Positions 12,257 to 26,520 of a stretch of 64,000 nucleotides of DNA are shown piece by piece (the stretch's first letter is position 1; each line of letters opens with the position of its first letter). Where the stretch lies: positions 1-64,000 of the forward strand of contig JAFXGM010000024.1 of assembly GCA_017513195.1 (NCBI GenBank), in the 5' to 3' direction. A model generated the notes under the pieces. It ran no database searches, had not been told where the DNA came from, and was given only the letters and a program-made list of their open reading frames with translations. The DNA comes from Clostridia bacterium. Its GTDB lineage: Bacteria; Bacillota; Clostridia; Oscillospirales; Acutalibacteraceae. A program made the translations under genes and the position numbers.

Positions 12257-12973
12257 TTATAGTGCTTCGGCAAGTTTTTGGGCTGATTGATATCTATCAA
12301 GGGGGTTTACACTAGTACACTTTTTAACAATTTTACCCGACCTGCCGCGTGCCAATGTTTCACTTGGGTGTTTACCGGTTAGCATTACGTTAAGCAATAT
12401 ACCCATTGCGTAAATATCGGTTCTGGCGTCGCTGCTTGTTACACCCAACTGCTCGGGTGAAGCATAACCAACCGTGCCCATTATAACGGTGTCCCTTGTG
12501 TTAGCGGATGCAATTCTTGATATGTTTAGGTCTATTAATACAACACGACCTTCGTCTGAAATAATTATGTTTTCGGGTTTGATATCTCGGTGAACGATAT
12601 TTTTTTGATGCAAAACGTTAAGTGCATTGCAAACCGAGGTAAGCACGCGCTTTGCACCACGATATTTATAGTTTCCGCTTTTCATAACGTCGGCAACGGT
12701 TATGCCGTTGATAAATTCTTCTAAAACAATCTGCCCGTCGCTAAGGGTTACCACGTCATATATTTCGGGTAGATTTTCGGCTTTAATGCTGCATAAAATT
12801 TCGTATGCCGTAACAATTTGAGGAAAGCTATGTAACACTAAATCGCGGTTTAAGTGCTTATGTCTTATGCGCAAGGTTTTGCAATCATTTTTATCGGAAA
12901 GAACAGAGATAATTTTGTAATTTTGAAGTAATTTTTTGATGTATTGTTCTCGCGTTGATTTAGAGCTGTTCAT
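12257..12973 (-). CDS. Ser/Thr protein kinase-like protein with degenerate N-lobe
   Basis: 238 residues, a bare kinase domain with no membrane helix or sensor. The C-lobe looks active: HRDIKPEN (HRD at 128-130, N135), a DLN motif (148-150) at the DFG position, and an activation segment MGTVGYASPEQ. The N-lobe is unusual. The glycine loop is replaced by VLSDKNDCKT (about 24-33) and the VAIK lysine position holds H48 (RDLVLHSF), so ATP binding is either non-canonical or lost. Its start overlaps the stop of the zinc-ribbon gene (ATGA), indicating translational coupling. It may phosphorylate or bind its neighbours, or act as a pseudokinase scaffold. Confidence 0.8.
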   Translation of the reverse strand: MNSSKSTREQYIKKLLQNYKIISVLSDKNDCKTLRIRHKHLNRDLVLHSFPQIVTAYEILCSIKAENLPEIYDVVTLSDGQIVLEEFINGITVADVMKSGNYKYRGAKRVLTSVCNALNVLHQKNIVHRDIKPENIIISDEGRVVLIDLNISRIASANTRDTVIMGTVGYASPEQLGVTSSDARTDIYAMGILLNVMLTGKHPSETLARGRSGKIVKKCTSVNPLDRYQSAQKLAEAL

Positions 12974-13977
12974 TTAATTTCGCCGCCGTTCCATTCTTGG
13001 TATAAAGCACTGTAATTGTCGGCTATATTTCGATAATACTTATAATCAAAGTTTTTGCAGTCATAAGCGCAATGTATAGTTAGTGCTCCGGTACTATTCG
13101 ATTTATCTGCAAAGGCGGTTTTAAATATATCTATGATTTTGCCTTCAACATAAATATCGGTTAGGTTATAGCAGTTAGAAAATGCATTTTGCCATATCGT
13201 TTTAACCGTAGCAGGAACTACAACCTTTTTAACCGTTTTGCTTATTGCCAAATCACAAAAAGCGTTGGGCATAATTGCGCCGACACGTTTTCCGTCGATT
13301 TCTGGTGGTATAGTATATATTCCATCGCTTGCGGCTGTTTGTACACCTGTAATCACAATAACATCCGAAATGGGTTGTGCAGGTATATTGCCTTCGGTAT
13401 AGCAATCGGCGGCAACAGCATCGCGGTAGATATAAACCGCTTGGGTGGGTGTGATTGTTTCTTGTGTGTTATCTTCTTCTGAACTTTGACTATCGTTGTT
13501 ATCACTTTGTTGATGTTCGGATTGTGATGGGGTTGATGTACTAACGTTACTCGATGCTTCACTATTAATATTGCCGCTTTGTGAACTGTTGAAAGACGTG
13601 GTTTCGTTGCCTTTGTCATCGAGTTCGGTTACAGTGTCTTTACTATTTTCAGGTAGTGAATTATCGGTGTTTGCGTCGTTGCTAATAATTTCGTTCGACG
13701 AAATATCGCTTTGATTAGTAGAAATTTTTTCTGATGTTATTTCGCTTTGTGTTATATAATCACTAGAAGCGTTATTTACCTCATTTCCACCTAAAGCAAA
13801 TATTGTTACAACAAAAGTGAGCACAAGCAACAAAAAGGCGGCAAGTATATACGGCCACCTTTTATTGTTTTTTGGTTGATTTTCAATTGTTTGTTTTTGC
13901 TCTAAAGAGGACATACAAAACACGCAAAACCGAGCGTTATCTTCTATATCAGCGTGACAAAACGGACATTTTTTCAT
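12970..13977 (-). CDS. Zinc-ribbon membrane protein with extracytoplasmic BspA-like repeat domain
   Basis: 335 residues. The N-terminus is a cytoplasmic zinc ribbon (CPFCHADIEDNARFCVFC, two CxxC pairs), followed by one transmembrane helix (about 40-63), a long Ser/Asn/Thr-rich low-complexity region and a C-terminal domain with BspA/LRR_5-like repeats (IDGKRVGAIMPNAF..VKKVVVPATVKTIWQNAFSNCYNLTDIYV). The order is zinc ribbon inside, membrane, presumed extracellular ligand-binding domain outside. Sits between the HTH-like gene and the kinase gene and overlaps the latter by 4 bp. This suggests one sensing or signalling unit; the ligand is unknown. Confidence 0.8.
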   Translation of the reverse strand: MKKCPFCHADIEDNARFCVFCMSSLEQKQTIENQPKNNKRWPYILAAFLLLVLTFVVTIFALGGNEVNNASSDYITQSEITSEKISTNQSDISSNEIISNDANTDNSLPENSKDTVTELDDKGNETTSFNSSQSGNINSEASSNVSTSTPSQSEHQQSDNNDSQSSEEDNTQETITPTQAVYIYRDAVAADCYTEGNIPAQPISDVIVITGVQTAASDGIYTIPPEIDGKRVGAIMPNAFCDLAISKTVKKVVVPATVKTIWQNAFSNCYNLTDIYVEGKIIDIFKTAFADKSNSTGALTIHCAYDCKNFDYKYYRNIADNYSALYQEWNGGEIK

Positions 13978-13983
13978 TTTTGC

Positions 13984-14406
13984 TTACCCCAAAGTATCTA
14001 AACCGTATTCGTATAATAACTCGTTAATCTCAATTACCGAAAGGCCTTTACATATACCGTAAAGTACGATGCTGTCAAAGGGGAGTTTCACATAAAGTGG
14101 TGAATAACCTGCCGTTTTAAGCAAGGTCTGCATTTCGTCGATATTAAGCTTCATTGCCACCGCTAAGCACAAAAGCTTTTTGCGTTCAGGCACACGAAGT
14201 CCCGAAAAAATCTGATAGCCGTAAACCTCGCTCATTTCTGCCTCTTTTATAACGGCAGATTTTTTTAATCCTTTTTTCGCAAGCAATTGTTCAAGCATTT
14301 CTGATAACGTATCTTTAATTAAATACTGCTTGTTTTCGTTATAAAAGGTTGTAAAATCGGGGCAAAGTCCCAACTCTTCTACAATTTTTGATGTATCTTT
14401 TTGCAT
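13984..14406 (-). CDS. Small HTH-like cytoplasmic protein, first gene of kinase module
   Basis: 140 residues. The ATG at 14406 is preferred because AAGGGTGA precedes it. The middle (about 30-100: MLEQLLAKKGLKKSAVIKEAEMSEVYGYQIFSGLRVPERKKLLCLAVAMKLNIDEMQTLLKTAGY, read here in pieces) follows the pattern of an XRE-like helix-turn-helix, with a KKSAVIKEA..YGYQIFSG recognition region. The C-terminus is helical with no known motif. It probably binds DNA or couples the kinase to transcription; this is inferred from the fold only. Six bases separate it from the zinc-ribbon gene, so the three genes form an operon. Confidence 0.65.
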   Translation of the reverse strand: MQKDTSKIVEELGLCPDFTTFYNENKQYLIKDTLSEMLEQLLAKKGLKKSAVIKEAEMSEVYGYQIFSGLRVPERKKLLCLAVAMKLNIDEMQTLLKTAGYSPLYVKLPFDSIVLYGICKGLSVIEINELLYEYGLDTLG

Positions 14407-14564
14407 TGCCGTCACCCTTTCACCACATAATAATACCATAAACGACAAAAAAATACAACTATGCTGTCAGCATAAGACTTTTTGAATTAAAAGAGTTAAA
14501 ATGTTTTCAAATGCAGTAGGCATATAGATGTTTATTGCATAATAAAGGAAAAGAGGTAAAAATT

Positions 14565-16657: not shown

Positions 16658-19099
16658 TTATCTGTCCCATTCGTCAAGCCATGTCTTAACGGCTATATCT
16701 GCGGTAGCAAAAGGTTGGTCGGCCTTAATTTCGATAACTCGGGTTTCGCCTTTTTCCATATCAAAGAAGTTATCGGACATATATGTACCGCTAAATTCGG
16801 GAACAATGATATTTACCATACGCGCATAAGCAGCAGTAGCGGTAATTGTAACGGTAGCACACTTGTCGCACTTGCGCTCGATTGATACTTTAAGTTTTGG
16901 GTCGCACCAAGCAACGTCCTTCCACAAATCAGGGAAGTAGAAGGTTTTTGTTGTGTCAGTATCGGTTATAAGCTCGGCTATGACGATGCGATTTGTACCG
17001 CTTTCGATAATATCATCAAGGTAAAGTATCTTTGCTGATGTGTTAGGTGCTACGTTGACCGTGGCGCTTTTTTCGCTATATATATTACCGTTAACATCGG
17101 TGTAGCGAATATTTAAAGTACCGTTTATATCACTTAAAGTGTCATTTACAACAAATGCAAACGTACCATCTTTGTGCTTTGTAACGATTGGCGTTACGGG
17201 TTTATACGAGCGCTTTGCAGCATAATATGACGCCTTTGGTATCATATAGTAATCAAGCAAAGCCCAAGTTCCGCTTGGCCAAATGTCAGAGCACATCCAA
17301 AACATAGCGCCGCCGCAGTCGCCCTTGCGAGAGCGATGGAATTCACTGTCGGCACGAACGTATTCGCTGTGAAGCGCCATAGAGTGCTTTACATAGCCTG
17401 TAAGGCAATCAAATTCGCCAAAGGCTTCGGTTGCGGCCTTGATTTGCTTTTCAACAAAAGGAATGCCGCCGTAGCCATCGTATGGGTTGCGTGTAAAATG
17501 CAGATTGTAAATTTCGTTTACAGGCCAAAGACTTTCTTGTGGTATATATTTTTTAAGTGATTCTACACGACAAGCACCCTGAACCGCAATTTCAGATGCC
17601 ATTGGTGCTTCACGCTCGGCCAAAATATCACGGAATTCGGTAAAACGACCGTGACCTATAGACGGCTCATAGCTGTTAACGTGGCTATCACCTGAGGTTA
17701 AATCGTTACCAACACTACCAAAAGAATATGGCGAAGACGGCATATAAGGTCTTGTGCCGTCAAGGTGGTGGCACATACCGCAAAGGGTATAATAAACAAG
17801 GTGGTCGCCGCGACTTTTAAGCTGACCTACTGTACCGGTTTTTTCGTTACCGCCTGTTGCCACGAAAAAGCTTGGATGTGTCTGAAGTCTGCTTATTTGA
17901 TATTCAACCTCTTCAATTACCTGCTCGTTAAAGCCCTCGTAATCATCGGGAATATCGGCACACGCAAACTGAAAATCCTGCCAAACTAACATACCGGTCT
18001 CATCGCAAAGGTCAAAGAAAATGTCTTTTTCATAAATACCACCGCCCCATACGCGCAGACAGTTAAAGTTTGCGTCGTGCGCCATCTGTATAGCCTTGCG
18101 GTATTTATCGTCGGTGATGCAGCCCGTCATAATATCAAGCGGCACCCAGTTAGCACCTTTAAGGAATATTTCTACTTCGTTGATTTTAAATTTGCAGTAA
18201 AATTTTTGTGTATCGGCAGGGGATTGATCGTGCTCTACTGTGCGGAAGCCAAAACGACCACACTTTGTGTGGGTTTCTTTTTCATTTTCAATGAGCGTCA
18301 CTTCGTAGTTATAAAGATGTGGTTCGCCTAAGAATTTCGGCCACCAAAGCTTTACATCGTCTATAAAGATATTGCATATCGTTTTATAACCGTCAACGCT
18401 TACGGTCTTTTCAATGGTGGTGTCGCAGTCCCACACCTTTACGCGAAGGAATTTTCCGCCTACATCCCACGGATTAAGATCCTTACCTAAATGAACAATT
18501 AAAGCCGCTCTGCCGTCAAGCTCGGGCCTAATTATTACGTGAGAAATTTCATTGCCGGGTAAAATCTCAAGCTTTACGTCCTGCCATATACCCATGGCGG
18601 GGAAATTTGGTGCCCAGTCCCAAGAAAAGTGGCACTGCGCTTTGCGAATAAATATACGCTGAATATCAAAGCAACCAAAGTAACCCTCTTTTGGAAATTC
18701 GCTTGCCTTTTTACGAATGGACAAAAGCTTTACTGTAAGCGTGTTTTCACCTACCGACACATAGTCGTTAATTTTGAACGCATAACGCAAAAACATATTA
18801 TTGGTATCGGCAATTTTGACATCGTTTATATATATCTCAGAAAAGGTATCAATGCCGTCAAAAACAAGCTTGATTTTATCTTGAAGCATTTCTTCGGTAA
18901 TGTTGAACTTCTTTTCATAAATCCAATCTTGCTCGGCAACCCAAGCGCAGTTGTTTGCATTATCAGAATAATAGGGATCCGGAATAACAGAAGAATTTAA
19001 AAGATCGTTATGAACGTCACCCGGAACGGTTGCCTTGTATGTAGTGTTGGTTTGTGGGTTTTTTAGCAACCATTCGCCATTAAGCAAAATCTTTTCCAT
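16658..19099 (-). CDS. Beta-mannosidase, glycoside hydrolase family 2
   Basis: 813 residues, typical family length; ATG preceded by AAGGAG. No signal peptide, so it should be cytoplasmic and act on imported oligosaccharides. The GH2 order is visible: N-terminal sugar-binding domain (CAWVAEQDWIYEKKF..), Ig-like domain, then the TIM barrel with LRVWGGGIYE and WQDFQFACADIP, both typical of beta-mannosidases. The acid/base E419 is in GGNEKTG and the nucleophile E503 in ASEIAVQG. Hydrolyses terminal beta-D-mannose from mannans or N-glycan cores by a retaining mechanism. First gene of an operon with the HAD hydrolase. Exact substrate uncertain. Confidence 0.87.
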   Translation of the reverse strand: MEKILLNGEWLLKNPQTNTTYKATVPGDVHNDLLNSSVIPDPYYSDNANNCAWVAEQDWIYEKKFNITEEMLQDKIKLVFDGIDTFSEIYINDVKIADTNNMFLRYAFKINDYVSVGENTLTVKLLSIRKKASEFPKEGYFGCFDIQRIFIRKAQCHFSWDWAPNFPAMGIWQDVKLEILPGNEISHVIIRPELDGRAALIVHLGKDLNPWDVGGKFLRVKVWDCDTTIEKTVSVDGYKTICNIFIDDVKLWWPKFLGEPHLYNYEVTLIENEKETHTKCGRFGFRTVEHDQSPADTQKFYCKFKINEVEIFLKGANWVPLDIMTGCITDDKYRKAIQMAHDANFNCLRVWGGGIYEKDIFFDLCDETGMLVWQDFQFACADIPDDYEGFNEQVIEEVEYQISRLQTHPSFFVATGGNEKTGTVGQLKSRGDHLVYYTLCGMCHHLDGTRPYMPSSPYSFGSVGNDLTSGDSHVNSYEPSIGHGRFTEFRDILAEREAPMASEIAVQGACRVESLKKYIPQESLWPVNEIYNLHFTRNPYDGYGGIPFVEKQIKAATEAFGEFDCLTGYVKHSMALHSEYVRADSEFHRSRKGDCGGAMFWMCSDIWPSGTWALLDYYMIPKASYYAAKRSYKPVTPIVTKHKDGTFAFVVNDTLSDINGTLNIRYTDVNGNIYSEKSATVNVAPNTSAKILYLDDIIESGTNRIVIAELITDTDTTKTFYFPDLWKDVAWCDPKLKVSIERKCDKCATVTITATAAYARMVNIIVPEFSGTYMSDNFFDMEKGETRVIEIKADQPFATADIAVKTWLDEWDR

Positions 19100-19146
19100 A
19101 AAAAAACTCCTTTGCGTCTTTTATTTTAAAAATCTATTACAAATTA

Positions 19147-19175
19147 ATTATACAAATAAATATACGACGATTCAA
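19147..19175 (-). promoter_or_regulatory. Promoter of the beta-mannosidase operon
   Basis: Minus strand TTGAAT (19175-19170), 17-bp spacer, TATAAT (19152-19147), about 48 bp before the ATG. Confidence 0.7.
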
Positions 19176-19312
19176 TAAGATTTACAAAAATATTATTACA
19201 ATTTATTGACTAATTTAAAAACATTTATGATAGTATTACACACCTTGTTTTAACAGCTTTACGAAGCAAATCCCGATTTCTTTTATTTTTAAAAAGATAC
19301 TTACGATTTGAG

Positions 19313-19341
19313 TTGAAAATTATTAGTATAATATGTATAAT
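19313..19341 (+). promoter_or_regulatory. Promoter of the membrane sigma-factor gene
   Basis: TTGAAA (19313-19318), 17-bp spacer, TATAAT (19336-19341); start near 19348, leaving a leader of about 22 nt. Confidence 0.75.
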
Positions 19342-19369
19342 AAAAAATATCTTTGGGGGTGTGAGCATA

Positions 19370-21526
19370 GTGGACGAACAATTTAATAATAATAATCAAC
19401 TTTATAATATACACGGCAAACTTGCAACCGTTCAAGACGCGGAGAGTAATTCTACCCAAAACCGCGAGCTAATTCAAAAGGCTATGAGTGGAGATAAAAG
19501 AGCTTTTGAACAGCTTTATATGCTAAGCTACCAATATGTATATTTTGTAGTGCGTGACTATATTTCCGATGATGAAACAGTATACGATATTATTCAAGAA
19601 ACCTTTATAAAAGTGTATAAGGGTATAACAACACTACGTTCGCCCGATGCTTACTATAGCTGGGTTACCACCGTTGCAAAAAATACTGCCAAAAACTTTT
19701 TACGCACAAAGCAGTACCACATTTTAATTGACGATAACGATGATTATTCTACATTTTTATTAACTCAAGACCAAAGTCAAAAAGATGTGTCAATGGATAT
19801 CCAAACCGTACTTAAAGAATTGGACACACAGGATGCCGAGCTGTTGTCATTGGTTTATTATGACGGAATGACTGCGGCACAAATCGCAAAAATGCGTGAT
19901 ATGCCAATAGCTACTGTTTATACGCGTATTAATCGCGCCAAGAAAAAGCTTAAAGCACAACTTGCAGTTCACGGCATAGACAAGGCGATTTACAGCGGTA
20001 ATTTTATGTCTATGGTAACCACCGCTATTCGCAATATAATTGGTACGGCATTACTTAGCCTTGTAATAGCGCAACAAATTTTAGACAGTGTTATAAACGG
20101 TAAAGGTAAAAAAGAAATTGCGGTAGCAAAAGTTATCCGCGCTCAACAGAAAAAAACTGTGCTAAAAATAGCTTCAGTTATTGTTGCAATATCTATGATA
20201 ACCTCAGCTGTAACGGCGCTTGCGTTTACCGACTGGAATCGATTTAAAATTTCAGAAGATAAAAATAACAGCACCGAAACTGTTACAGAATACCATGATT
20301 ACAATGAGGTGGAAAAGGACGATAATTCATCACAAGACAGCGGTGGATTTTGGGGCAATCTATTTGGTGGCGACAGCAGCGATTCAAAAAATTCAAGTGA
20401 TACAAATACCTCAAGCAATGCTTCATACTCTTCGTCACAACAAAACAAACCGTCAAGTTCAAGCAGCGGCTCTGATACCAACAGTTCAAAAAACCCTACC
20501 GCTAACGGCAGTACACCGTCAAATTCAACCCCCGATAATTCAACTTCTACAGATATTACCGACAAACCCGCGGAGGTTGTTAAAGTTTTTGGCAACAACC
20601 CTAACAATGTAATGACTACCAATCAACAATTAGAACAATACGAAACAGGCTTAGTTGCAAAACAGGGTGAGTGGATATATTTTGTTCAGCAATATGGCCG
20701 TATTATGAAGGTTAAAACTGACGGTTCAGATATGCAGGCGGTTTTTGAAGTATCGGGCTTTTCATATATAGAATGTCTGAATGTAATTGGCGACACAATT
20801 TATTATATAAACGGTGGCGTCTGGAGTGTAAAAACCGATGGCACTAACAGAAAACAACACACCAGCAAAGCCGCACACAACTTATTGGTGCGTGGCAAAA
20901 CAGGTTGGTTTGTAGAGTTTATAGAACAAACGGAATACCCTCGTGGATGCAGTTATAATTTATATCAAATTGATTTTTCAACAGGCGATATAACTACGCT
21001 TGTTGAAACTGGAGTAGGTTTTGGCTTAAAAACGGTTGTTGACAACAAGCTGATTTATGCAAACGGCTTTAAAGTCTATTCACGTGATTTATCTACAGGT
21101 AGCGAAGAGGTCATATTTGATGTTTTGGCTCAAGCGCAGGATGTGCCTTCAACTAATAATTTTGGTATAGAAGGTATGATCATGGGGTCTGATTATAATA
21201 TGTATATTGAAAGAGGTACTACTTCCTTTAATTATATTACATATAAAATAAACCTGAACCAGCCGAATGTTGTCTTAGAAACATATGATTGTTTTGATAG
21301 AATTTATAATTATTTTGATCATAACGACGGAGCATTTTTTGCTATTCGTGGCCTTTCTTTCACTTTTTATGATTTACAGGGCAATTCCTTGTGTGAAAAA
21401 GATGAAAACCTACATCGTTATACGGGCATTTACACTTTTGATGACGGGTACGCATATTATTTTGATGAAAATCGCACAGCCCTTTATCGAATGCGACCTG
21501 ATGGCACAGGTTTGAAAATATATTAA
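19370..21526 (+). CDS. Membrane-tethered ECF sigma factor fused to an extracytoplasmic sensor domain
   Basis: 718 residues from the GTG at 19370, chosen because GGGGGTG lies 8 bp upstream and the promoter starts at about 19348, which excludes the earlier ATG at 19313. Residues about 32-115 are sigma-70 region 2 (AFEQLYMLSYQYVYFVV..YDIIQETFIKVYK) and about 145-200 region 4 (ELLSLVYYDGMTAAQIA..ATVYTRINRAKKKLK). A weaker hydrophobic stretch (222-240) is followed by a clear transmembrane helix (264-287), a Ser/Asn-rich linker (about 288-410) and a C-terminal domain (about 415-718). That domain has repeated motifs such as GRIMKVKTDGSDMQ, GVWSVKTDGTNRK and ALYRMRPDGTGLK, resembling a DUF5050/TolB-like beta-propeller. 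Sigma, membrane and sensor parts are thus one polypeptide, with no separate anti-sigma gene nearby. Confidence 0.82.
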   Translation: MDEQFNNNNQLYNIHGKLATVQDAESNSTQNRELIQKAMSGDKRAFEQLYMLSYQYVYFVVRDYISDDETVYDIIQETFIKVYKGITTLRSPDAYYSWVTTVAKNTAKNFLRTKQYHILIDDNDDYSTFLLTQDQSQKDVSMDIQTVLKELDTQDAELLSLVYYDGMTAAQIAKMRDMPIATVYTRINRAKKKLKAQLAVHGIDKAIYSGNFMSMVTTAIRNIIGTALLSLVIAQQILDSVINGKGKKEIAVAKVIRAQQKKTVLKIASVIVAISMITSAVTALAFTDWNRFKISEDKNNSTETVTEYHDYNEVEKDDNSSQDSGGFWGNLFGGDSSDSKNSSDTNTSSNASYSSSQQNKPSSSSSGSDTNSSKNPTANGSTPSNSTPDNSTSTDITDKPAEVVKVFGNNPNNVMTTNQQLEQYETGLVAKQGEWIYFVQQYGRIMKVKTDGSDMQAVFEVSGFSYIECLNVIGDTIYYINGGVWSVKTDGTNRKQHTSKAAHNLLVRGKTGWFVEFIEQTEYPRGCSYNLYQIDFSTGDITTLVETGVGFGLKTVVDNKLIYANGFKVYSRDLSTGSEEVIFDVLAQAQDVPSTNNFGIEGMIMGSDYNMYIERGTTSFNYITYKINLNQPNVVLETYDCFDRIYNYFDHNDGAFFAIRGLSFTFYDLQGNSLCEKDENLHRYTGIYTFDDGYAYYFDENRTALYRMRPDGTGLKIY

Positions 21527-21542
21527 GTATCAAATATTAATT

Positions 21543-21579
21543 AAAGCGCTTGCTACATTTTTGTAGCAAGTGCTTTTTT
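21543..21579 (+). terminator. Intrinsic terminator of the sigma-factor gene
   Basis: GCGCTTGCTAC / GTAGCAAGTGC stem (one G-T pair), loop ATTTTT, followed by TTTTTT. Confidence 0.88.
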
Positions 21580-21582
21580 GTG

Positions 21583-21660
21583 TCAACGATTAATTTCCTT
21601 TTTGTTTGATCTACCTAAAATATAATCGGTAGAAACTTTGTAAAAATCAGCAAACTGAAT
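21583..21660 (-). pseudogene. C-terminal remnant of an XRE-family repressor
   Basis: On the minus strand 25 codons read IQFADFYKVSTDYILGRSNK followed by KEINR and a TGA at 21585-21583. This matches the end of a Cro/CI-type HTH domain (family pattern LxxLADxFxVSxDYLLGR). A stop codon lies directly upstream in frame (21661-21663) and no helix-turn-helix could be found beyond it in any frame. The gene is therefore decayed or truncated. It lies in a 343-bp stretch without an intact gene (21527-21869) that otherwise holds the sigma-gene terminator and two palindromes. Confidence 0.6.
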
Positions 21661-21677
21661 TTAAAATTCGAAAAGGT

Positions 21678-21723
21678 AGTGCTTATAAGTACTGATTTTA
21701 AAAAAATTCAAAAATTTTGAATA
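21678..21723. promoter_or_regulatory. Two palindromes beside the XRE remnant
   Basis: AGTGCTTATAAGTACT (21678-21693) is a palindrome apart from one symmetric pair, and ATTCAAAA A TTTTGAAT (21707-21723) is a perfect odd palindrome. They may be old operators of the lost repressor or operators of the downstream Mor-like and collagen genes. Inference from symmetry only. Confidence 0.4.
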
Positions 21724-21869
21724 ATTTTCTCGATTTGGTGTGTCTTTATATATAAAAGCTTAAAATCTAAAAAAATATGTACATTTTACAACGACAATAA
21801 TTTTTTATTTTGGTAGTTAGCAATGTTTGGAAAAATATTTTATTATATAAAGAAAGGTTGAATTATGGA

Positions 21870-22142
21870 GTGAGATTTGGTTTGAAATTAAAAAATGAAG
21901 ATAATTACATAAATAATGTTTATGCAAAGATTGCTAATCTTATTGGTGTGGAAAATGCAAAAATACTTTTTAACGAGTATCGTGGTCAGCAGATAACTTT
22001 TCCTGTAGAGTTTTATAAAAAGGAATATATATACAGTGAAATTGTGGCAGAATACAATGGCGAAAATATTAAAGAACTCGCAAAAAAATACAATTACAGC
22101 GAGCACACCATAAGGCGAATTTTAAATAAGTATCTAAACTAA
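21870..22142 (+). CDS. Mor-like DNA-binding protein
   Basis: About 90 residues from a GTG at 21870. A longer reading from a TTG at 21810 has no ribosome binding site, and AGAAAGG lies 12 bp before the GTG; the start remains uncertain. Domain order follows the Mor transcription activator family: a helical N-terminal part (YINNVYAKIANLIGVENAKILF), the GQQITFPVEFYKKEYI core, and a C-terminal HTH (ENIKELAKKYNYSEHTIRRIL). Mor activates middle transcription in phage Mu; chromosomal relatives in Firmicutes are mostly uncharacterised. It ends 40 bp before the collagen-like gene on the same strand and could control it. An ATG at 21865 in another frame is closed after two codons. Confidence 0.65.
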   Translation: MRFGLKLKNEDNYINNVYAKIANLIGVENAKILFNEYRGQQITFPVEFYKKEYIYSEIVAEYNGENIKELAKKYNYSEHTIRRILNKYLN

Positions 22143-22182
22143 TAATTTTGTTAAAATATAATATTACGGAGGAAATAGAAAA

Positions 22183-25815
<3,633 letters not shown>

Positions 25816-25830
25816 ATTAGATAAAACATT

Positions 25831-25893
25831 AACACAGGGGACGGTTCTCTGATTACTCTGATTAAAAACGGAACGACACACAGGTCGTTCCCT
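25831..25893. repeat. Possible REP/IS-end-like intergenic repeat
   Basis: Contains ACACAGGGGACGGTTCTCTG, a string resembling ends of small transposon-associated repeats in Clostridia, then a perfect hairpin GGAACGAC ACACAG GTCGTTCC (25870-25891) followed by CTACA. No transposase is nearby. Assignment rests on memory of similar strings, not on a search. Confidence 0.4.
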
Positions 25894-25915
25894 ACAAATA
25901 AAACATTTTTCTCAC

Positions 25916-25940
25916 GGCGGGGAGTCATCCCCGCCTTTTT
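25916..25940 (+). terminator. Intrinsic terminator of the collagen-like gene
   Basis: GGCGGGGA GTCA TCCCCGCC followed by TTTTT. Confidence 0.9.
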
Positions 25941-26072
25941 CATTTTCACACTACGCATTTAATTTTCATAAAATGCAGTAAGGCGAAATTTATATTTTGC
26001 CGTGATTATATTTTTACAAAAAGGGTAAAAATAGTAATGCAACAATGTAATATTTCGGAGTGTGAATAGTCA

Positions 26073-26426
26073 ATGAATATAAAACGAGGAGAAATATATT
26101 ATGCCGACCTAAGCCCCGTTGTTGGCTCTGAACAGGGTGGGGTGCGGCCTGTGCTTATAGTGCAAAACGATGTCGGTAATAAATACAGTCCTACGGTAAT
26201 TGCCGCCGCGATTACCAGTCAACACGATAAATCTAATTTGCCCACGCATATAGAGCTTAACGCGGATTGTTGCGGGCTTGCTAAGGATAGTATTGTATTG
26301 CTTGAACAGGTGAGAACCATTGACAAGCAGCGCCTTAAAGAAAGAATGGGTACAATCGATTCTACGGCTATGAACCGTGTGGACAAGGCTTTGTCCGTCA
26401 GTTTTGGACTTGGAAGGTTTAGTTAA
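26073..26426 (+). CDS. mazF: MazF/PemK-type mRNA interferase toxin
   Basis: 117 residues, full family length. The start MNIKRGEIYYADLSPVVGSEQGGVRPVLIVQND is the classical EndoA/NdoA N-terminus, and PTVIAAAITSQ, PTHIELNADCCGLAKDSIVLLEQVRTIDKQRL and the C-terminal helix match the same family. It would cleave single-stranded mRNA at a short recognition sequence. No antitoxin (MazE/EndoAI-type ribbon-helix-helix) gene is found in the 257 bp upstream, and the downstream neighbour is phosphoglucomutase. The gene is thus an orphan toxin here; an antitoxin may be elsewhere. Ribosome binding site GGAGTG precedes the ATG. Confidence 0.92.
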   Translation: MNIKRGEIYYADLSPVVGSEQGGVRPVLIVQNDVGNKYSPTVIAAAITSQHDKSNLPTHIELNADCCGLAKDSIVLLEQVRTIDKQRLKERMGTIDSTAMNRVDKALSVSFGLGRFS

Positions 26427-26459
26427 ATAATTTTGTCGAAACCTCTTACTAAATTTTGG

Positions 26460-26488
26460 TTGACAAGTTATAAAATGCATTATAAAAT
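26460..26488 (+). promoter_or_regulatory. Promoter of the phosphoglucomutase gene
   Basis: TTGACA (26460-26465), 17-bp spacer, TAAAAT (26483-26488), 33 bp before the ATG. Confidence 0.75.
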
Positions 26489-26520
26489 TATAATGTATAT
26501 AATTTAGGGAGGTTTTGACA

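Follow-up and report, generated by a model that had tools for sequence, protein, structure and literature searches.

Tethered sigma factors of the ECF type and the exchange of their predicted outside domains in Clostridia-type genomes

We identified a real, conserved and uncharacterized family of tethered ECF-type sigma factors whose outside domains are exchangeable. The member described here is encoded in the window, the whole 64,000-nucleotide stretch of contig JAFXGM010000024.1 (assembly GCA_017513195.1, a Clostridia bacterium of the gut) that was analyzed. A single gene (19370..21526, + strand) encodes an ECF-type sigma factor, a predicted membrane helix and a predicted outside propeller. 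On balance, and judging from sequence, we lean toward a model in which the protein is held inactive at the membrane until proteolysis frees the sigma factor to transcribe the neighboring operon from an ECF-like promoter. That operon is likely turned on when something outside the cell is sensed. Among the papers listed in literature searches, titles and opening lines of abstracts yielded no description of this family. If the model is true, outside sensing, membrane holding and promoter choice are combined in one bacterial protein, and the predicted output, a single operon beside the gene, would make input, release and output testable with one gene and one reporter.

Architecture of the protein

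The gene is one intact open reading frame, as the preliminary description of this DNA had it; it runs over 718 residues from a GTG codon at 19370. A mechanical ORF list gives an alternative TTG start at 19313; this codon sits in the first hexamer of the gene's predicted promoter, which makes GTG the better start. Sigma-70 region 2 (residues 50-115, 19517..19714, + strand; PF04542, Sigma70_r2, E 2.2e-10) and region 4 (residues 142-194, 19793..19951, + strand; PF08281, Sigma70_r4_2, E 1.8e-11) lie within the span, about residues 32-200, first proposed for them. Pfam places only PF04542 and PF08281/PF04545 above cut-off on the protein. By family membership it is an ECF-type sigma factor: it has regions 2 and 4 but lacks 1.1 and 3, and the TIGR02937 sigma70-ECF model scores 86.8 bits versus a cut-off of 42.9. 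Solved-structure matches of the sigma part are ECF factors, and each of the narrower NCBIfam sigma models scores the protein below its cut-off. A conserved N-terminal motif precedes region 2 (19400-19453; consensus D-I-K-G-N-x-I-T-x-x-D-A-K). The genes on either side are a divergent mannosidase-like gene upstream and a Mor-family HTH gene downstream; no anti-sigma gene adjoins on either side, in agreement with the earlier reading.

The strongest hydrophobic segment of the protein, residues 267-285 (20168..20224, + strand; KD 2.18), is a predicted transmembrane helix. It falls within the helix proposed earlier (264-287), and topology prediction gives a single helix with the sigma side in and the C-terminus out. 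A hydrophobic 19-mer is present at 262-300 in 34/34 aligned relatives. Mean net charge is +6.1 before the helix (245-267) and -3.3 behind it (288-320), and in every one of the 34 rows the more positive charge lies on the sigma side. This bias predicts a cytoplasmic sigma factor and an ectodomain outside; the topology stays a prediction because segment 223-241 is itself moderately hydrophobic (KD 1.68).

Residues 200-243 (19967..20098, + strand) form a conserved juxtamembrane segment, a candidate built-in element that would hold the sigma factor. In 34 relatives, some of them LRR-bearing, the most frequent residue at a position accounts on average for 0.83 of the rows in this segment, compared with 0.79 for region 2, 0.83 for region 4, 0.72 for the membrane helix and 0.40 for the ectodomain. 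With only residues 196-292 as query, a search among proteins of 0.55-1.75 times the query length recovered 95 proteins, 94 with sigma-70 domains plus one piece (P0067). Pfam on the segment alone gave no family above cut-off and residues 197-264 lack cysteine in all 34 rows, so the segment is no zinc-type anti-sigma domain. The window protein has no cysteine anywhere in residues 1-264, and Pfam detected neither a zf-HC2-type nor a FecR-type domain in it. It may represent a novel type of anti-sigma element built into the sigma protein itself. Docking of the juxtamembrane segment onto the sigma part was attempted in two AlphaFold models; in both, confidence was low there (pLDDT mostly <60), and we make no claim from them.

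Behind the helix, residues 300-404 (20267..20581, + strand) form a linker that is predicted to be disordered. Of its 105 residues, 28 are Ser, 12 Thr and 13 Asn, which bears out the Ser-rich linker of the preliminary description. Residues 406-718 (20585..21523, + strand) are predicted to be an outside beta-propeller. The AlphaFold model of this part has pLDDT mostly near 90, and among solved folds it is matched best by the 7-bladed propeller 3s25 of Eubacterium rectale (TM 0.67, normalized to target length; Foldseek E 3.6e-10); the propeller-like C-terminal domain suggested from the letters alone thus finds a structural counterpart. Pfam placed nothing above cut-off on the C-terminal half, DUF5050 (PF16472) and WD40 included, and DUF5050 is found in the ectodomains of many relatives.

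Relatives and exchange of outside domains

The protein search, which scored the 7998 candidates that share most words with the query at 0.55-1.75 times its length, returned 100 relatives, 98 of them with sigma-70 domains in the same protein. Of the other two, P0067 is a piece that begins within the juxtamembrane segment, and P0098 (406 aa) has DUF5050 as its only domain and no hydrophobic peak. Many of the relatives are near-identical entries of one 720-aa type. In a six-frame search of 70 genomes of the genus (E up to 1e-60), 5 genomes were found to hold 6 copies between them, every one in a single frame of 574-799 aa. The architecture first described is kept in 98/100 relatives, and on these counts and the single frames of the genus copies we rejected a frameshift or assembly join. 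No split into a sigma gene and a membrane gene was seen among relatives in the length range searched. At the family level, at least 8 of 398 genomes have a match at 1e-50, a lower bound because up to 2 candidates were scored per genome. A scan of viral contigs revealed no relative, and a viral origin was dropped.

The outside part varies in kind. BspA-type LRRs (PF13306, LRR_5) take the place of the propeller in 10 of the 100 relatives. Ten more distant loci include seven with a callable sigma ORF, with outside parts assigned to LRR_5 (three), DUF5050 (two) or no family (two). The close loci are the window and five others: L022 and L025, both from one Oscillospiraceae MAG, and L023, L024 and L026, from Clostridia MAGs of goat, roe deer and water deer gut. 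The host genome also carries a second tethered-type sigma gene (L043:10325-12715, contig C37; 796 codons), the sigma part of which is 23% identical to that of the window. This gene has no Mor neighbor, and its outside half has no Pfam match, LRR included.

Sequence comparisons indicate that ectodomains have been exchanged between relatives. The window protein and P0015 are 0.96 identical in the sigma part and 0.90 in residues 201-288 versus 0.37 in the propeller; with P0003 the corresponding values are 0.61, 0.86 and 0.91. The widest disparity shown by these pairs is between P0066 and P0083 (0.99, 0.83 and 0.24). Identity in the sigma part correlates with that in the propeller at only 0.30 across 820 pairs (41 proteins). 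Outside domains swapped on a near-unchanged sigma factor (99% vs 24% identity) would constitute a natural series for studying how a transcription switch is re-tasked.

Gene order points the same way. HAD and mannosidase-like genes upstream and a phosphomannomutase-like gene downstream mark the window slot, which has a syntenic counterpart in L025; the sigma gene at that position in L025 is of the LRR type. Propeller identity between the window and L022 is 91%, and in L022 the sigma gene adjoins proline-synthesis-like genes (recognized by eye) common to L023. Window and L022 proteins are identical at 114/200 positions in residues 1-200 and at 472/518 (91%) in residues 201-718, and beyond the stop codon the match goes on to about 21687, with 130 bases matched. 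The promoter stretch behind that point is nearest L025 (46/72 positions); L024 is nearly as close (45/72), which leaves the right-hand end of the exchanged piece no more than suggested. We tentatively consider, while holding it rather improbable, a fuller scenario of a one-protein cassette: the sigma factor would stay tethered and switch on only the operon beside its gene, and recombination at the juxtamembrane boundary would swap the outside sensor along with matching surface-protein cargo, re-tasking the sigma module to new signals from outside. As a separate observation, the divergent gene adjoining the sigma gene of L023 (L023:8501-9763) encodes a PGA_cap-type capsule-synthesis-like protein.

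The neighboring operon and its promoter

Immediately upstream of the sigma gene we identified a housekeeping-type promoter, TTGAAA-N17-TATAAT (19313..19341, + strand), with 11/12 consensus bases; a TTGA(C/A)A-N16-17-TATAAT site occupies this position in 6/6 close loci. Behind the gene lies a terminator-like hairpin (21543..21576, + strand) with a 15-pair stem and a T-rich tail, followed by an ECF-like promoter, TAATTTT-N13-GTCTTTA (21722..21748, + strand), that is exact in all six close loci. The sigma gene and the Mor operon are thus predicted to be separate transcription units. Autoregulation is common for ECF factors; no ECF-like site was found upstream of this sigma gene.

The exact motif occurs in 6/6 gaps between sigma and Mor genes and nowhere else in 377,441 bases (24 sequences), and the host genome has one exact site, about 200 bp behind the sigma gene. 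Across the 70 genus genomes there are 12 exact sites: the five sigma-bearing genomes account for six, each of them at the locus, and 6 of the 65 genomes without a tethered sigma have one stray site apiece. The reversed control pattern has 14 sites in the 70 genomes, four of them in the five sigma-bearing ones; given this and the AT-rich motif, single matches elsewhere mean nothing. Around the motif the loci agree at 22-41 of 58 positions, far less than in the motif itself. With up to 1 mismatch the host genome has 8 sites versus 3 for the reversed control, so we do not claim a wider regulon. The site can also be read as CGTAAT-N15-CGTC (AATAAT-N15-TGTC in the window), which we take to be the shape of an ECF promoter. 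Its form is TGTGTC in the window and L025 and TCGTC in the other close loci, and the window sigma part is nearest that of L025 (118/170) among the six; across these six loci only, there is a hint in the sequences that promoter form tracks the sigma part.

The first gene behind this promoter (21810..22142, + strand; start codon uncertain) encodes a Mor-family HTH protein (PF08765, E 4e-12; 46.5 bits versus a cut-off of 24.9). A gene of this family, of some 90-110 codons, is next downstream in 6/6 close loci. When the genus was scanned with a Mor model built from the close-locus proteins, those proteins came out best, as they must by construction, at 149-161 bits. Seven weaker genes, each in a different genome, scored 60-118 bits; no tethered sigma gene lies near the weaker seven within the stretches read. 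Mor is near one (L056) of the ten more distant loci. The linkage of promoter and Mor gene thus rests on 6 loci in 5 genomes.

Next comes a gene for a collagen-like, BspA-LRR protein with a hydrophobic N-terminus (22183..25815, + strand; PF01391, E 1.5e-67; PF13306, E 1e-22), which is likely the cargo of the operon. The preliminary description had guessed that this gene is a target of the sigma factor. The conserved ECF-like promoter 5' of the Mor/collagen-like pair supports that guess; the nearest downstream gene is Mor, which went unmentioned. Collagen-like genes follow Mor in the window, in L022 (where the frame is open at the contig end) and in L023, and these three loci share one propeller subtype (0.70-0.91 identity). 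In L024, L025 and L026, other exported or unassigned proteins are encoded behind Mor.

Several smaller features were recorded nearby. Rfam gave no match on 19000-26500, and a candidate conserved RNA hairpin in the Mor leader was dropped (consensus energy -0.46 kcal/mol, with an unfavorable covariation term). By eye, the sigma-Mor gap of L022 (L022:12200-12450) holds an apparent small reverse-strand HTH gene, of which 21587-21660 in the window looks like a remnant. Farther along the window, 26073-26426 encodes a MazF-like protein (sub-cut-off NCBIfam matches). The reverse strand at 12257-14448 encodes a protein-kinase-like protein (PF00069), a zinc-ribbon/LRR protein and one unassigned protein, and similar zinc-ribbon genes stand beside a Mor gene at L078.

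A proposed switch, its alternatives and known systems

In the model that we favor, the protein would be made steadily from the housekeeping promoter and inserted in the membrane with the sigma part inside. Without a signal, the juxtamembrane segment and the tether would keep sigma off polymerase; residues 200-243 may mask sigma surfaces and so replace a separate anti-sigma factor. Binding of a ligand or wall partner by the propeller (or LRR) domain could expose a site-1 cut in the linker, after which an RseP/RasP-type metalloprotease of the genome (M50, site-2) would free the sigma part. Three M50 matches were found in the host genome, the best of which is L019 (350 aa, HEFGH motif). The freed sigma factor could then use TAATTTT-N13-GTCTTTA to drive expression of the Mor regulator and the collagen-like surface protein, and Mor may in turn tune the circuit.

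Release by proteolysis has to be weighed against a sigma factor that works while tethered, in the manner of ToxR or CadC, with the outside domain changing shape or clustering inside so that polymerase is captured at the membrane for the adjacent promoter. The single exact site of the predicted promoter in the host genome is roughly 200 bp from the end of the sigma gene, which would suit a protein acting close to where it is made. Conservation of the juxtamembrane segment is what a moving part would show, and membrane-bound one-component activators are known in the partial accounts consulted. The same kind of source describes no tethered sigma factor as active at the membrane, and the characterized one, IutY, is cut; we regard action in the tethered state as doubtful, though worth keeping in view. 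Far less probable is a protein that crosses the membrane twice (223-241 and 267-285), with a cytoplasmic propeller serving as an inside sensor. Segment 223-241 is moderately hydrophobic and conserved, but its insertion score is poor (+6.2, compared with +0.1 for 267-285), the loop between the two passes would put a net charge of about +6 outside, and a distant relative (P0099) has glutamates within the segment. Ser/Thr-rich linkers and LRR_5 or propeller domains also fit an outside position. On the insertion score and flanking charge we judged a second crossing unlikely and retained it as a rival.

The link between sigma factor and promoter can be read differently too. The ECF-like promoter might belong to another sigma factor or to Mor, with the tethered sigma serving unrelated genes. 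There are 13 region-2 matches in the host genome in all, the flanks of the site are AT-rich, and the genes behind Mor vary between loci. Against this stands the placement of the exact sites, which in tethered-sigma genomes are all at the locus (6/6), other genomes having a single stray each in 6 of 65 cases; we consider a different user of the promoter unlikely. Least probable of all, in our view, is that the protein is a membrane decoy or ligand-controlled sink, whose sigma-like part binds polymerase or Mor and no longer drives transcription. Moderate Pfam scores of regions 2 and 4 would suit such a role, whereas the strong conservation of both regions (0.79 and 0.83) and the conserved ECF-like promoter that accompanies the gene in 6/6 loci would not.

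Tethered sigma factors are already known, as partial texts of earlier reports make clear. The preliminary description had framed a one-protein tethered sigma as a departure from the usual arrangement; the fusion stands, and its novelty in kind does not. IutY of Pseudomonas putida (ECF243) unites sigma and anti-sigma in a single polypeptide that Prc and RseP process (PMC8999054, PMC7593790, as excerpted). The window protein resembles it in joining a sigma factor and a predicted membrane helix in one polypeptide, and by analogy residues 200-264 are a candidate for the anti-sigma function. IutY is described as answering an outer-membrane siderophore receptor in a Gram-negative cell, in contrast to the propeller/LRR domains and Clostridia-type genome seen here, and the inside segment of the window protein has no match to a Pfam anti-sigma family.

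ECF52 (SCO4117, Streptomyces), ECF48 and ECF53 combine a sigma factor, a transmembrane region, a low-complexity linker and an outside binding domain in one protein, and their release by proteolysis has been proposed (PMC5826349, PMC8999054, in the available portions). The window protein has the corresponding fused parts, the helix and outside domain being predicted. Unlike this family, in which 0/34 rows have a cysteine in 197-264, those groups carry a zinc-finger anti-sigma domain, and the same excerpts report them only in Actinobacteria, as opposed to the Clostridia-type genome of the window. A propeller-type domain joined to a sigma factor is also described, in partial sources, for ECF57 and the planctomycete WD40 sigma factors. 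In ECF57, a conserved cysteine pair is described as linking regions 2 and 4; the window protein differs in lacking cysteine in 1-264 and in having no WD40 match. By analogy, the family may also be compared with SigI-RsgI of Clostridium thermocellum (PMC12203970, in part), which likewise has several sensors with different outside domains and transmembrane signalling through RseP cleavage. There, sigma factor and membrane anti-sigma factor are separate; here they would be one protein.

The downstream regulator matches PF08765, as does Mor of phage Mu, which according to the available part of one report binds two 5-bp inverted repeats centered at -43.5 (PMC4390567). Unlike the phage gene, the window gene sits on the chromosome next to a tethered sigma gene. 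Absent from the window and L025 and present in imperfect form in L023 and L026, a perfect dyad, ACAAGG-N8-CCTTGT, stands just before the first hexamer of the sigma promoter in two loci (L022:9750-9922, L024:3177-3345); by our own count, its position is approximately that at which Mor is described, in the same partial source, as binding the Pm promoter of phage Mu (-43.5).
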